This document shows positions 46,006-53,764 of a stretch of 64,000 nucleotides of DNA, piece after piece; the first letter of the stretch is position 1; each line of letters opens with the position of its first letter. The stretch covers positions 186,001 through 250,000 of the forward strand of contig NZ_JACEHK010000001.1 of assembly GCF_025377685.1 (NCBI RefSeq), read 5' to 3'. The notes below the pieces were generated by a model. The model ran no database searches. It was not told the DNA's origin and saw nothing but the letters and a program-made list of their open reading frames with translations. This stretch comes from Anaerobacillus sp. CMMVII. GTDB taxonomy: Bacteria > Bacillota > Bacilli > Bacillales > Anaerobacillaceae. The position numbers were made by a program, and so were the translations under genes.

Positions 46006-46746
46006 ATGTTTAATAAAACGTGTCCAGAAGAGTATCCAATTAATTTATATATAAATTCTCGTAATCTGCTAACCATCCAATTAACCGAAGTTCATTTAGA
46101 AGATTGGGCAATCGGTTATATGTATGCAGAAGGAATTATTGAATCTCCTGAAGAGGTCAAATCAATCACAATTGACCCCTATCGAGGTAACATACATGTT
46201 GATTTAGGTAATAGCATTGATATGGATGTTTTCTTGAAAAAGAAGAAAACAATCACTGCTGGTTGTGGTAAAGGTGCTACTTTTCGATCGATCAAAGAAA
46301 TGAGTAATTTCAAAAAGGTTCAAGAAGCTAGAAGTATCTCAACTGCTTTTTTAAGGCAGAAGATGCGTGATATGTATAAATTGACTCCTCTATACCATCA
46401 AACAGGTGGTATGCATGCGGCTTGTATTATTGATGAACAAGGCGAAATGATTGTTAGAGAAGACATCGGAAGACATAATGCTGTCGATAAAGTAATTGGA
46501 GCAGCGTTAAAGAAAGGTCTTACTGGTAAGGAATGCGTCATTATGACAACCGGCCGAATTTCAATGGAAATGTGCTCAAAAGTCGCCCGTTTTGGTATTG
46601 GTGTAGCAGCTTCTAGAACGGCTGCAACGAATTTAGCTGTTGCTCTAGCAAAAGAATTGAATGTTGATTTAGTAGGGTACGTTCGTGGCCAGTCTGCTTA
46701 TGTTTACACTGAAGGAAAGCGCATTCTTAAATTAGTAAATGAGTAA
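46006..46746 (+). CDS. fdhD: Formate dehydrogenase sulfurtransferase FdhD
   Basis: A 246-residue FdhD protein, which passes sulfur to the molybdenum/tungsten bis-MGD cofactor of formate dehydrogenase. Family features: the Cys loop ITAGCGKGATF (about residue 83), HQTGGMHAACI, REDIGRHNAVDKVIG and CSKVARFGIGVAASRTA. The cysteine loop has one Cys instead of the CxxC of E. coli, as I recall in other Firmicutes. It starts 87 bases before the catalytic subunit. Confidence 0.93.
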   Translation: MFNKTCPEEYPINLYINSRNLLTIQLTEVHLEDWAIGYMYAEGIIESPEEVKSITIDPYRGNIHVDLGNSIDMDVFLKKKKTITAGCGKGATFRSIKEMSNFKKVQEARSISTAFLRQKMRDMYKLTPLYHQTGGMHAACIIDEQGEMIVREDIGRHNAVDKVIGAALKKGLTGKECVIMTTGRISMEMCSKVARFGIGVAASRTAATNLAVALAKELNVDLVGYVRGQSAYVYTEGKRILKLVNE

Positions 46747-46833: not shown

Positions 46834-49800
46834 ATGATTACACGCCGCGATTTTTTGAAGCGTACTGGTGCTGTAACAGCAGGTGCAACGATTGCTGCTG
46901 TTGGTGGGATTAATGTAAAACCTGTCCAAGCCCAAGTGACAAAAATTAAGCTTCAGGCGAAAGAAGGAAGACAAGTTCCGAGTGTATGTCCATACTGTTC
47001 TGTAGGTTGTGGAATGATCATCACTGAAGCTGAAGGTAAAATTATTAATATTGAGGGTAATCCAGATAGCCCAATTAACTTAGGTTCCCTCTGTCCAAAA
47101 GGAGCTGCAGCATACCAGCTAGCAGTAAATGAGGAAAGACCTCAACAAGTCTTGTATCGTGCTCCGTTTGCAACTGAATGGGAAACGAAGCCACTAGATT
47201 GGGCAATGGAGCGTATTGCTCAAAAAATGAAAGAAGATCGCGATAATCACTTTATTGAGAAACAAGATGGCAAATTAGTAAATGTTAACCCTGCGTTTGC
47301 TTCTCTTGGTGGTTCTACATTAGAAAACGAGTGGAACTATATTCATGCAAAATTAATGCGTGGTCTTGGCGTTGTTAACGTTGAAAACCATGCCCGTATA
47401 TGACACAGCTCAACAGTACCCGGTCTGGGTGCAGCGTTTGGTCGCGGTGGTGCGACTACCACTCCTCGTGATTTAGCAGAGAGTGATTGTATTGTCATTA
47501 TGGGTTCTAACTTTGCAGAGAACCATCCGGTAGGTTTCCGTTTCATTCTTCAAGCTCGTGACAAAGGTGCAAAAGTCATTCATGTTGATCCGCGCTTTAC
47601 TCGAACATCTGCAATGTCATCGGATTATGTACCAATGCGTTCAGGAACGGATATTACGTTCTTAGGTGCGCTAATCAATTACATGCTTCAAAATGAAAAG
47701 TACTTCAAAGAATACGTACTTAACTATACAAATGCTTCTTTCATTATCAAAGAAGAGTTTAAGGATACTGAAGATTTAGATGGTATTTTCTCAGGCTTCG
47801 ATCCAGAGAAAAAATCATATGATAACTCAAGCTGGGCGTATGAGCGTGAGGAATTAGTCGTTCTTGATGGTGAACCTGCGACTCTATCTGATCGTCTTGC
47901 GAAAGAAAAGTTACAAGGTAGACCAAAGCGTGATGAGACTCTCCAACATCCAAGAAGTGTTTTCCAAATTATGAAGAAGCACTACGCTAGATATACTCCA
48001 GAAATGGTAGAAGATATCTGTGGTACGCCTAAAGAAGATTTCATGATGGTTGCCGAAGCACTTGCTGCTAACTCGAATCCAGAGCGCACAAGTTCATTCT
48101 GTTATGCGATGGGTTGGACTCAGCATACGTATGGTGTTCAATGTATCCGTGCTGGAGCAATTCTACAAGGAATTCTTGGGAACATGGGTCGCCCAGGTGG
48201 CGGTATTTTAGCACTTCGTGGTCATGCGAACGTACAGGGTGCAACTGACTTATCAACACTTTGGAACTCGTTACCAGGTTACCTAGATATGCCAGCAAAA
48301 GCGAGACCGCATGATACGTTAGAGGATTTCTTACGATCAATGCAACGACCAACTGGTTTCTGGCAAAATTATCCTAAATACTTAGTGAGTTTACTTAAAG
48401 CGTGGTATGGTGATGCGGCAACAGCTGCAAATGATTTTGGTTATGATGCGCTACCAAAAACGCTTGGTAACCACTCACACTATCGTATGTTTGAAGATGC
48501 GTATAACGGAATCATCAAAGGGATGATCGTTATGGGGCAAAACCCAGCTGTTGGTGGTCAAAATGCATCTTTCCACCGTAAAGCATTAGCGAATCTTGAC
48601 TGGTTAGTTGTGAAAGATCCATTCTTGATTGAAACTGCAACATTCTGGTATGAAGCACCTGAAGTGAAAAATGGTACGGTGAAAGCTGAAGATATCGGAA
48701 CAGAAGTGTTCTATATGCCTTCAAGTGTATTTGCTGAAACAGAAGGTAGCTTCACAAACACGTCACGTATCCTACAGACGAAAGAAAAGGCCGCTGATCC
48801 TCCAGGAGATTGCCGTTCTGATCTATGGTTCACATATGAACTCGGTAAGAGATTAAAAGAGTTATATAAAGATAGTACAGCTAAGCATGACTGGGGTATC
48901 AAGAACTTAACTTGGGATTATGAGCCTGATGTAAACCCGCGTTTTAAGATACAAGAACCTAGTGAGCACAAAATCATCAAAGAGATCAATGGTTTTGATG
49001 TTGCAACAGGTGCACCATTAGCATCATTCGGATTATTACAAGATGATGGTTCGACTGCATGTGGGTGCTGGATCTACACAGGTGTTCTACCTGAGGAAGA
49101 TGTAAACCGTGCGGCTAGTCGTCAAGGTGACGATTATGTAGCATTGGATTGGGGCTTTGCATGGCCTGCGAATCGTCGTGTTCTCTATAACCGTGCTTCT
49201 GCTAGACCTGATGGGAAACCTTGGTCTGAGCGTAAGAAGTATGTATGGTGGGATGAAGCTGAAAAGAAATGGACTGGATATGATGTTCCTGACTTTGCAG
49301 CAACAAAAGCGCCAGATACACCAGCTGTTGTTGGTGCTGTTGGCTTAGCTGCACACAGTGGGGCAGACCCGTTCTTAATGATGGCTGATGGTGTTATCCA
49401 ATTATTTGCGCCTACTGGGGTAACGGATGGCCCGCTGCCAACACACTACGAGCCACCAGATACACCTGTTTCAGCAAATCAGTTATATCCAAAGTATACT
49501 CATAGTCCAACTGCCGTTATATTTGAAAATATTCCGAACAACAAAGTTCATGGTGCAAATAACTCTGAGTATCCATTTGTTATTACAACGTACCGTGTGA
49601 CAGAGCATCACTTAAGTGGCGCAATGACACGTTGGTTACCATGGCTTGCGGAGTTAATGCCTGAGTTATTCCTAGAGATCAGCCCAGAATTAGCTTCAGA
49701 GTTAGGTGTACAAAGCAAGGACTACGTGACAGTTTCCACTGCTCGCGGAACGATTGAAGCGAGAGCTCTAGTTACAAAGCGTATGCGCCCTCTTAAGGTA

Positions 49801-49980
49801 GAAGGTAAAGTCGTGCACACAGTTGGTATGCCAATTCACTGGGGTTACTCAGGTGTTGCAACAGGATCTGTACCAAACGATTTAAGTGCTATTGTAGCTG
49901 ATCCTAACGTATATATTCACTCTTCCAAAGCATTTACATGTAATGTGAAAAAAGGAAGATTACCAGGAGGGGTAGCATAA
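46834..49980 (+). CDS. fdnG: Selenocysteine-containing formate dehydrogenase catalytic subunit
   Basis: One gene of 1048 residues reading through an in-frame TGA at 47401-47403 (codon 190), placed exactly where the active-site residue belongs (ENHARI-Sec-HSSTVPGLGAAFGR). A Tat signal is at the start (RRDFLKRTG), then a 4Fe-4S motif (CPYCSVGCG...GSLCPKGAA), the bis-MGD domains (PVGFRF, QARDKGAKVIHVDPR, MGQNPAVGGQNA) and the C-terminal cofactor domain (HHLSGAMTR, SKDYVTVSTARG). It oxidises formate outside the cytoplasmic membrane as the FdnG-like subunit. A SECIS-like hairpin directly follows the TGA. It must depend on SelA, SelB, SelC and SelD, none of which is in the window. Confidence 0.93.
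47401..47440 (+). promoter_or_regulatory. Bacterial SECIS-like element
   Basis: After TGA, 18 bases lead to the apical loop GGTCT (47422-47426), closed by ACCC (47418-47421) and GGGT (47427-47430). The loop sequence and its distance from the TGA equal those of E. coli fdhF as I recall them. It directs selenocysteine insertion through SelB. Confidence 0.85.
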
Positions 49981-49981
49981 A

Positions 49982-50791
49982 ATGAGCCAAGTCGAAAGCA
50001 GTAAAGGTATGTTCATAGATACAACCCTATGTCACGGTTGTAAGGCTTGTGAAGTAGCTTGTAAGCAGTGGAATGAAATTCCTGCTAACCCTGCTCCTTC
50101 ATTAACAGGAAATAGTTATGATAATACAGGTGGCCTTGATGGTCAAAACTGGCGTCATGTTAAGTTTATTGAGGATATCTCTGACGATAGAAGTGATTCG
50201 CGTTGGTTATTCCTTTCTGACTCATGTAAACACTGTACATTAGCAGGTTGTATGTCGGTATGTCCGACAAATGCAATCATTCGTACAGAGTTTGACACAG
50301 TGTACATTGATCACGATACTTGTATCGGCTGTAAATACTGTATTACAGGTTGTCCATTTGGTGTTATCGGAATTGGAGATCTTAGTGGGACAGCTGAAAA
50401 ATGTTCACTATGCTATGATCGCTTACAAGTAGGTCAAGAGCCAGCATGTGCTCAGTCATGTCCAACTGACAGTATTGAGTTTGGAGATGTGACAGACCTA
50501 GTAGCAATGGCTAAACAAAGAGAGCAAGTTCTACAAGCAAGTGGAAATTTAAAAGCTAAATTATATGGAGATAAAGACATTTTAGGTGGCTTAAACGTAT
50601 TCTATTTACTTCAAGATACACCTGAAAAGTATGGACTTCCTAGCAACCCACAAATGCCACAAAAAAATATGCTTGGTGGTTACTGGAGTAGTGTTTTCAG
50701 CTTATTCGCTGTTGGCCTAGTATCACTTCTTAGCTTCCGTACGTATCGTGAACGTAAGCTATTAGAAGAAAAAACCACTACAAGTGCGTAA
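49982..50791 (+). CDS. Formate dehydrogenase iron-sulfur subunit
   Basis: A 269-residue ferredoxin-type subunit with four 4Fe-4S motifs: CHGCKACEVAC, CKHCTLAGCMSVC, CIGCKYCITGC and CSLCYDRL...CAQSC. A C-terminal membrane helix (about 235-255, GYWSSVFSLFAVGL) anchors it, as in FdnH. It passes electrons from the catalytic subunit to the membrane subunit. It starts 1 base after the catalytic subunit. Confidence 0.94.
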   Translation: MSQVESSKGMFIDTTLCHGCKACEVACKQWNEIPANPAPSLTGNSYDNTGGLDGQNWRHVKFIEDISDDRSDSRWLFLSDSCKHCTLAGCMSVCPTNAIIRTEFDTVYIDHDTCIGCKYCITGCPFGVIGIGDLSGTAEKCSLCYDRLQVGQEPACAQSCPTDSIEFGDVTDLVAMAKQREQVLQASGNLKAKLYGDKDILGGLNVFYLLQDTPEKYGLPSNPQMPQKNMLGGYWSSVFSLFAVGLVSLLSFRTYRERKLLEEKTTTSA

Positions 50792-50807: not shown

Positions 50808-51743
50808 ATGTATAGCTATGAACTAACGCAGTTAAAAAGTCCAGATTTTCCATTCATCATCATTTTTGACCTTTTTATCGGTGGTATAGCAGCAGGGGCA
50901 TTCTTAGTCACTGCCCTCCTGCTCGCCTTTGGTGGAAAGATTAATAAAGCTGGATTACATCGTGCGTATTATGTAACGATGGGGTTACTTCCAATTTACG
51001 GTCTATTGCTTGTTTTAAAACTTGATAAAAAAGAACGTTTTGTCAATGTTATGTGGCAGTTTAGAGATGGAAACCTTATGATTAATTGGGATTCTCCGAT
51101 GTCATTAGGGGCGTGGGTATTGAATGTCTTTGGAGTGTTTGCCCTTGTAGGTGTGTTGTATGCGCTAAAGAAGGACAATTTACTACAATTCTCTTGGGCA
51201 CAAAAGCTCTATGCATTAGCTACTTATTTACATGAAGGAAAGCTTGCAAAAGTATTCCTTTCAGTAGGAGCTTTTTTTGCAGCTTGGTTCTCCATGTACT
51301 TAGGAGTCCTTGTAACAACATCGAACCTACCAGCGTGGAATGCAACGCCGTTAATCCCAACCCTATGGATTATCAGTGCGGTAGTCACCGGTGTATCTGT
51401 TGTCATTTTATTGCTTTTATTTACAAACCGTGGCTCACAGTTGGATGAGTCCATCCAACGTTTAGATAACATTGTTAAGTCAGTTATTGTTATGAACATT
51501 GCGATGATTATCATCTTTGTGTTCGCGTTAGGTCAGTGGAGTGAAACAGTAACAAGAGATATGTTTGGAGTTCTGTTATGGGGCGGCGTAGTTGTTGTTG
51601 GATTATTAGTGCCATTATTGTTAAAACTAAAACCGAATCTCCTTGGAATGCGAAATTCATTAATCTTTTCAAGTGTATTAGTTTTGGTTGGTGGCTTTAT
51701 CCTACGTTACGTTGTGATGATGGGGCCAATGTCATTTTGGTAA
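50808..51743 (+). CDS. nrfD: NrfD/PsrC-family quinone-linked membrane subunit
   Basis: A 311-residue membrane protein with eight to nine helices and the NrfD start (FDLFIGGIAAGAFLVTALLL). It replaces the di-heme cytochrome b subunit (FdnI) of E. coli FDH-N and would pass electrons to menaquinone without heme. It follows the Fe-S subunit by 16 bases. Confidence 0.9.
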   Translation: MYSYELTQLKSPDFPFIIIFDLFIGGIAAGAFLVTALLLAFGGKINKAGLHRAYYVTMGLLPIYGLLLVLKLDKKERFVNVMWQFRDGNLMINWDSPMSLGAWVLNVFGVFALVGVLYALKKDNLLQFSWAQKLYALATYLHEGKLAKVFLSVGAFFAAWFSMYLGVLVTTSNLPAWNATPLIPTLWIISAVVTGVSVVILLLLFTNRGSQLDESIQRLDNIVKSVIVMNIAMIIIFVFALGQWSETVTRDMFGVLLWGGVVVVGLLVPLLLKLKPNLLGMRNSLIFSSVLVLVGGFILRYVVMMGPMSFW

Positions 51744-51837
51744 AATAAGGTTTGAAAAACGGGGAGATAGTGAGTCATTAAAATTGGCTTACTTTCTCCT
51801 TTCTTATATAATTGGATTAAAAGGAAGAGGGGCGATT

Positions 51838-52698
51838 ATGAGTACAGTAAGAGCGATTAAAAATGTTTGGAATCGTTATATTGATAAGAATAAAGATTAT
51901 AAAAATGTGTCGAAAGTCCATATTGATTTAGTTGAGCGTCTAGAAAAAATTGAACCGTTAGTAGCTCGTTTAGAGTTAAGTAAAGAGGAAATTGCGTCAA
52001 AGCTTCAGCAAGGTATCCCTTACTTAGAAGGTGAAGAAGATAAGGTTGAATTACAATTTGCAATCATGCACTTCCGTGAACTATCGAATTGGACTGGACT
52101 AGGCGATTCTCGCTCAATCTTTAAAAAGATGGGTAAAAAGGCAACGGATGCAGAAATTCAACAATTACAACGCGCGTGGCTCCTTGGTGATAGCACAGTG
52201 ATTGATCAATTTGCCGGTCAGTACAATCTACCGTTAGATGTTTTATTTGTAGTCATACGTTATAGCCTATTACCAACGCTTAACCAATACACGAAAGAGT
52301 TTGAAGAGACAAAAGTATTTAACGAAGAAGAATGGATGAAGGACTATTGCCCAGTATGTGGGGACCAGCATGGCCTTGCAGAGTACCGTGGAAGTGAGAG
52401 GTTACGTCATTTTAGATGTTTGTCATGTGCGGGAGATTGGACCTATTGGCGCATTGCATGTCCACATTGCGAAAATAAAGATCATAACCAACTAAGTACA
52501 CTTTTAATCCAAGAAGAAAAAGGATCATTCCAAATCGATGCTTGTGATGCCTGTCACGGCTATGTAAAAGGAATTAATAAACTAGATCCATCTAGTCCAA
52601 TGTTTCTTCTATTAGATGATTTTGCAACCTTCCATTTAGATTTATTAGCTAAAGAAAAGGGATACCACCGTCAAGGGTCCCAGACAACGTTACAGTAA
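51838..52698 (+). CDS. fdhE: Formate dehydrogenase accessory protein FdhE
   Basis: A 286-residue FdhE protein with rubredoxin-like Cys pairs: CPVCGDQHG, RCLSCAG, CPHCENKDH and CDACHGYVK. FdhE is needed for maturation of Tat-exported formate dehydrogenases. The ATG at 51838 is preferred (AGGAAGAGGGG upstream) over one at 51784. It is in line with the structural genes. Confidence 0.92.
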   Translation: MSTVRAIKNVWNRYIDKNKDYKNVSKVHIDLVERLEKIEPLVARLELSKEEIASKLQQGIPYLEGEEDKVELQFAIMHFRELSNWTGLGDSRSIFKKMGKKATDAEIQQLQRAWLLGDSTVIDQFAGQYNLPLDVLFVVIRYSLLPTLNQYTKEFEETKVFNEEEWMKDYCPVCGDQHGLAEYRGSERLRHFRCLSCAGDWTYWRIACPHCENKDHNQLSTLLIQEEKGSFQIDACDACHGYVKGINKLDPSSPMFLLLDDFATFHLDLLAKEKGYHRQGSQTTLQ

Positions 52699-52724: not shown

Positions 52725-53321
52725 ATGAATGCAGGACTTATTTTATTATCAGGCGGAAAATCAAGTCGTATGGGCACAAATAAAGCACTACTACCTGTAG
52801 AAGGTAAGGCAAATATTGAAAGAATTTTAGACAGTCTTGGTGAAGATTTTACAGATCGTATAATTGTAACGAATAGTCCAGAAGACTACTCGTTACTTGA
52901 AGAAAAAGTAAAGTTAATTCCTGATGTCTACCCTGGATTAGGACCGCTATCTGGGATTCACGCTGGATTGCTAGCTTCATCTGCTGAATATAATATTGTC
53001 GTTGCTTGCGACATGCCTTTTGTTTCCCAACAGCTAGCGCGGATTTTAGTTGCGAGTAGTCCAGGCTATCAAGCAGTCGTTCCACGTTTTAACGGGATGA
53101 GACAGCCACTTTTCGCTGTTTACCATCAATTAATGGTAGAGGAAATTGAACGTTTCTTAAAAGGCAATGATTTTCGTGTCAATAATCTTTGGGATAAAGT
53201 CAATATGCTATGGCTTGAGGATGAGGTCCTTAGTTCAATCCCAGAAATCGAGCGAGCTTTTTACAACATGAATAAACCAGAAGAATATAAACAAGTACAA
53301 GAGTGGGTAGCAAAAGGGTAA
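52725..53321 (+). CDS. mobA: Molybdenum cofactor guanylyltransferase MobA
   Basis: A 198-residue nucleotidyltransferase: LLSGGKSSRMGTNKALLP at the start, then VYPGLGPLSGIHAGL and ACDMPFVS. It joins GMP to molybdopterin to make the MGD cofactor used by formate dehydrogenase. It lies 26 bases after fdhE in the same operon and is followed by a terminator. Confidence 0.92.
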   Translation: MNAGLILLSGGKSSRMGTNKALLPVEGKANIERILDSLGEDFTDRIIVTNSPEDYSLLEEKVKLIPDVYPGLGPLSGIHAGLLASSAEYNIVVACDMPFVSQQLARILVASSPGYQAVVPRFNGMRQPLFAVYHQLMVEEIERFLKGNDFRVNNLWDKVNMLWLEDEVLSSIPEIERAFYNMNKPEEYKQVQEWVAKG

Positions 53322-53671: not shown

Positions 53672-53764
53672 ACTGGATCACGATAAAGGCAAAGCTAATG
53701 AAAATTAGTGACGCAAAGCTAAAGGGGCTAAGGTGGACTTCCACTAGGCCAGCCAGTTTCCGAA
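53672..53764 (+). promoter_or_regulatory. Cyclic di-GMP-I riboswitch (GEMM)
   Basis: Closing stem ACTGG/CCAGT (53672-53676 with 53753-53757); conserved core CACG...AAAGGCAAAGC; GAAA tetraloop on CTAAT/ATTAG (53695-53708); GTGACGCAAAGCT core; and the receptor helix GGGGCTAAGGTGG / CCACTAGGCC. This is the full GEMM-I layout. It lies about 125 bases before the first gene of the Tad pilus locus, with a terminator hairpin between, so pilus expression should respond to c-di-GMP. Confidence 0.9.

Follow-up and report, generated by a model that had tools for sequence, protein, structure and literature searches.

The window analyzed here is a stretch of 64,000 nucleotides from Anaerobacillus sp. CMMVII (contig NZ_JACEHK010000001.1, positions 186,001 to 250,000, forward strand). 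It contains a predicted gene for the alpha subunit of an FDH-N-type formate dehydrogenase (FDH), of which the sole interruption is a TGA codon in frame with the ATG at 46834 (Table 1). When this TGA is read as selenocysteine (Sec), translation yields 1048 residues with U at position 190. The initial annotation had expected automated tools to split the gene in two. This holds for mechanical ORF listing, the sole kind of tool shown, which returns the pieces 46834-47403 and 47500-49980, and the claim stands to that extent. The gene is intact and is due for annotation as a single 1048-residue selenoprotein. Its five neighbors, encoding FdhD, an iron-sulfur subunit, an NrfD-type protein, an FdhE-like protein, and a MobA-like protein, all lie on the same strand.

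Table 1. Features of the formate dehydrogenase locus (window coordinates) and selenocysteine genes of the host genome (contig C6)
Feature	Position	Strand	Evidence
FDH-N-type formate dehydrogenase alpha subunit (predicted), 1048 aa with Sec190	46834..49980	+	Translation, profile match, 1kqf alignment
In-frame TGA, predicted selenocysteine codon (residue 190)	47401..47403	+	1kqf alignment; stop in 80/80 relatives kept
Bacterial SECIS hairpin, 6-bp stem (47416-47421 with 47427-47432), loop GGTCT (47422-47426)	47416..47432	+	Covariation, folding, window scan
fdhD, formate dehydrogenase accessory sulfurtransferase	46006..46746	+	TIGR00129, 191 bits (cut-off 140.9)
Iron-sulfur (beta) subunit	49982..50791	+	TIGR01582 (FDH-beta), 183.9 bits, below cut-off 334.7; Fer4_11, 85.4 bits, over cut-off
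NrfD-type membrane anchor	50808..51743	+	PF03916, 102.6 bits (cut-off 25.8)
fdhE-like accessory protein, start codon unsure	51784..52698	+	PF24860, over cut-off; TIGR01562, 69.3 bits, below 187.65
mobA-like molybdenum cofactor guanylyltransferase	52725..53321	+	Below curated cut-offs
selA	C6:17813-19192		Own genome
selB	C6:10489-12360		Own genome
selC (tRNA-Sec), anticodon UCA	C6:8259-8351		58.6 bits (gathering 47)
selD, one in-frame TGA, GKGGUGCK	C6:15730-16659		Own genome

The protein matches TIGR01553 (FDH-N alpha) at 1072.1 bits against a cut-off of 814.2, which backs the earlier call of a selenocysteine formate dehydrogenase and specifies it as FDH-N. In addition, it barely exceeds the cut-off of NF041513 (1425.7 bits; cut-off, 1400). 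The latter family is named "formate dehydrogenase" (formate_DH_Act), where we read Act as Actinobacteria, yet the window comes from a bacillus. Among proteins of solved structure, the best match is Escherichia coli FdnG (1kqf; E value of 1.8e-238 over query residues 2 to 1040), and the 13 best of the 31 solved relatives listed, with E values below 1e-230, are all named formate dehydrogenases. In this alignment, U190 falls on X of 1kqf, H191 on its H, and R462 on its R (196, 197, and 446, counted by hand), and C52, C55, C59, and C87 align with its cysteines. The alignment of U190 with the Sec (X) of 1kqf places the in-frame TGA at the catalytic position, as had been proposed. We take the aligned residues to be the Sec/Cys metal ligand, the following His, a distant Arg, and the cluster cysteines. 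Like FdnG, the protein has a twin-arginine start, the Tat-like signal MITRRDFLK, in which the RR motif was read by eye.

A Tat signal, a Fer4 subunit, and a membrane subunit, the components looked for in an FDH-N complex, are all present, with a beta subunit that stays below the TIGR01582 cut-off and an anchor of a type unlike that of E. coli. The E. coli FDH-N membrane subunit is a cytochrome b, whereas the window locus encodes an NrfD-type anchor, which is haem-free. The sequence after the Sec differs as well, being UHGP in FdnG and UHSS in the window enzyme. The window protein thus departs from the UHxP motif listed for FdhA in the accessible text of PMC13188914. However, none of 88 distinct relatives has P there, 60 carrying S and 28 carrying A, so this departure is a trait of the subfamily. 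Both the anchor and the UHSS site, together with an assignment that rests on homology, would fit a Sec molybdo-enzyme of the same family with a main substrate or direction other than formate oxidation, for example, CO2 reduction. We consider this unlikely, since the protein passes the equivalog cut-off of TIGR01553, fdhD, fdhE-like, and mobA-like genes adjoin it, and its closest solved relatives carry the formate dehydrogenase name. Relatives of all five neighbors, in conserved order, accompany the gene in Evansella clarkii, and four of the five do so in Ammoniphilus, where no mobA-like match was found at an E value of 1e-4. Further downstream, a c-di-GMP-I riboswitch (window 53678-53764) precedes DUF192, type IV leader peptidase, and TadE-like genes.

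The hairpin described in the initial annotation is present: a GGTCT loop on a 6-bp stem begins 18 bases past the TGA, which is the distance in E. coli fdhF. On both strands of the window, a TGA followed after 16 to 20 bases by GGTCT occurs in five places, and a stem of at least 3 bp is found at the 47401 site only. With a loop of 5 nt starting with GG, a stem of 6 bp, a spacing of 18 nt, and an energy of -8.1 kcal/mol when folded alone, the hairpin lies inside the limits given for bacterial SECIS elements in the accessible text of PMC13188914 (loop, 3 to 9 nt; stem, 4 to 16 bp; a G in the first two loop positions; spacing, 16 to 37 nt; energy, -7.5 or lower). The surrounding 45-base stretch is no more stable than its shuffles (z score of -0.61; 50 of 200 shuffles as stable), and Rfam at gathering thresholds lists no match at the hairpin. 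Because shuffles fold as well, energy adds nothing to the Sec reading, which draws on position, loop sequence, covariation, and the presence of sel genes.

Comparison across relatives reveals compensatory changes that maintain the hairpin. The 109 loci yield 88 distinct sequences, in which 96.6% of the stem cells are paired and 77 cells show double changes, counts inflated by kinship to an extent that slid-stem and codon-dealt controls reduce but do not abolish. The slid-stem controls reach 33 to 53% pairing and 0 to 15 double-change cells. When synonymous codons are dealt anew, pairing averages 86% with 31 double-change cells; none of 500 such sets reaches either observed value, and the number of pair types is reached by one. 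A second count used 44 sequences, namely, 43 of the 88 plus the site of a host paralog on contig C10, with near-duplicates and all TAG rows omitted by choice. It agreed with the first, giving 95.5% pairing and 41 double-change cells, reached by 0 of 500 shuffles, while 90 of the 500 reached the observed three stem pairs showing a double change. Stem pair 17-31 is unpaired in 17 of the 88 sequences. The loop reads GGTCT in 88 loci, AGTCT in 11, AGTTT in 9, and GGGCT in 1, as counted over 109 of 110 rows with row L120, which pointed at a Cys paralog, omitted. Of the 89 loci with a Gly codon at the loop, 88 use GGT, whereas GGT accounts for 17% of the Gly codons in these genes. A chance hairpin was rejected on the covariation and the window scan. 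In Ammoniphilus (L040, 5565-5609), the loop is GGGCT and the genome has two tRNA-Sec genes, both with anticodon UCA.

A scan over named genomes, in which the best 80 of 149 relatives were kept, found a stop at this codon in all 80 (60 TGA and 20 TAG). These relatives are mostly Actinomycetota and also include Chloroflexota, Vulcanimicrobiota, and more. A single in-frame stop would equally arise from a sequencing error or from genuine nonsense mutation, leaving a Cys enzyme or a pseudogene behind, and the third FDH gene of the host does have an apparent frame break. Nevertheless, we regard this explanation as extremely improbable and rejected it on the conservation of the stop in the 80 relatives; moreover, two orthologs from the same genus (93% and 91% identity) also contain one TGA each, the host has sel genes, and the gene has a covarying hairpin.

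From the 80 relatives, 22 genomes were picked by choice (13 with TGA and 9 with TAG). In all 22, a tRNA-Sec match exceeds the cut-off and the anticodon of the best such match corresponds to the stop codon (13 TGA/UCA and 9 TAG/CUA). This agreement strongly supports, on comparative grounds, recoding of this codon. General readthrough of the UGA, or its reassignment, for example, to Trp, would dispense with Sec insertion, and the downstream frame is open, as any readthrough needs. However, a known Sec occupies the aligned position in 1kqf, the nine genomes with TAG have a CUA tRNA-Sec, and the host possesses selA, selB, selC, and selD. Such decoding is therefore scarcely credible, and UGA reassignment was rejected on the match between stop and anticodon in relatives.

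UAG-encoded Sec in FDHs of the Geodermatophilaceae has been published, according to the accessible text of PMC5330540. Those enzymes belong to the same family and share the same hairpin, but they combine TAG with a CUA anticodon, whereas the window gene combines TGA with UCA. A TAG-encoded Sec FDH recorded under Bacillus sp. AZ43 (flagged UNVERIFIED_ORG), with a CUA tRNA-Sec, falls inside the Geodermatophilaceae; the Bacillus name of this record is most likely wrong. ARAGORN labels nine CUA tRNA-Sec genes as tRNA-Pyl.

If the TGA is decoded as Sec, the host must have the full Sec pathway, as was pointed out initially. A search of its own genome (4.87 Mb, 21 contigs) located selA, selB, selC, and selD in the same assembly, all on one contig. 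The GKGGUGCK of SelD fits the UxxK motif listed for this protein in the accessible text of PMC13188914. The locus also contains a LysR regulator of a selenium-metabolism family (NF040786, 296.7 bits; cut-off, 250). A family 4 glycosyltransferase gene (L017 12378-13406) overlaps the end of selB; its nearest model is a GPMC-system model, below the cut-off, and it weakly resembles the selenosugar synthase SenB.

A SECIS model search of the host genome with E values up to 10, in which 150 of 443 first-look candidates were scored, returned three sites, corresponding to three FDH genes. The model was built from 44 sequences. The three sites match it by construction, because those of the window and C10 are in its alignment and that on contig C2 is identical to a member. 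The SelD site was absent among the matches from the 150 candidates scored, so the three FDHs and SelD are a lower bound for the selenoproteins of this host.

Taken with the subunit genes, these sequence data make it almost certain that the product of the gene is the catalytic subunit of a Sec-containing, membrane-anchored FDH-N-type formate dehydrogenase. By analogy with the family, SelB carrying Sec-tRNA(UCA) would bind the hairpin just 3' of the UGA, which would be decoded as Sec190, a ligand of a molybdenum or tungsten pterin site. The Tat system would export the folded enzyme, and the iron-sulfur subunit and the NrfD-type anchor would hold it there. Formate would then be oxidized outside the membrane, with electrons passing to menaquinone. 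For formate oxidation by this route, the host probably depends on selenium.

Two more FDH genes of the host have an in-frame TGA, at C2:284992-287982 and on C10 near 444.47 kb, and the GGTCT loop lies at 18 bases in all three. The C2 gene encodes a second FDH-N (TIGR01553, 1249.5 bits) with the same combination of TGA, loop, and spacing as the window gene. However, the two share only 49% identity, the C2 gene groups in a separate clade with genes from other families of the order, and it stays under the NF041513 cut-off that the window gene exceeds (1010.3 versus 1400). The C10 paralog has the motif UHAP. At the position corresponding to the Sec, seven more distant molybdopterin genes of the host encode Cys. 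Toward its 3' end, the third Sec FDH gene (L120, C10 near 442.93 kb, minus strand) shows a frame change, which is either a real break or a sequencing error.

The initial annotation had hinted that a Sec FDH is a rarity in such a host. This impression did not hold: among 397 sampled genomes of the order of the host, selA exceeds its cut-off in 181 and tRNA-Sec was found in 178, and Sec decoding is therefore common in this bacillus group. All seven genomes sampled from the host family, which belong to one genus, have selA. With Sec decoding genes in nearly half of the sampled genomes, Sec FDHs are to be expected there. With regard to the initial statement that most Bacillus formate dehydrogenases use Cys, close FDH homologs (E value of at most 1e-150) gave 29 matches in 26 of the 397 genomes, with one TGA each. 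selA is present in all 26, and tRNA-Sec is present in 25, the exception being G039, in a search with filters that lose weak matches. At 90% identity or more, the lineage of the window gene itself occurs in only 3 of the 397 genomes. Contig C1 of one same-genus genome (G004) carries a pair of tRNA-Sec genes separated by about 137 kb.

FdhA is described as the most widespread bacterial selenoprotein in the accessible portions of PMC5029168 and PMC13188914, and the FDH gene is a well-supported, ordinary example of it. This particular case is not reported in the accessible main-text portions of PMC9312934, PMC5029168, PMC1794560, PMC13188914, PMC10778597, and PMC5330540. A literature search linking Anaerobacillus to selenocysteine, with supplements and subscription papers outside its scope, found nothing, and the match from a search for selenoproteins with selenocysteine in Bacillaceae concerns tick bacteria.

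A quick tree built from 109 proteins joins the window gene, the two same-genus genes, and those of E. clarkii and Ammoniphilus in one clade (SH-aLRT of 100). The other FDH-N clade of the order, which includes the second FDH-N of the host, stands apart (SH-aLRT of 100; branch of 0.94). This separation makes lateral transfer of the window FDH lineage plausible, a grade limited by the midpoint root, query-led sampling, and simple model of the tree. A more extended reading, which we advance tentatively and with less than even confidence, is that the window enzyme represents a second, laterally acquired Sec FDH-N lineage, shared with Actinomycetota and Chloroflexota and rare in Bacillota, with a UHSS site and an NrfD anchor. 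Alongside the resident FDH-N and an FdhF-like Sec FDH, three Sec enzymes might then divide the formate chemistry of this host. Within the clade of the window genus, the E. clarkii FDH groups with one same-genus gene (SH-aLRT of 98), although the 16S sequence of E. clarkii is only 92% identical to that of the window host, a distance that by customary standards is too great for one genus; either a recent transfer or tree noise would account for this grouping.
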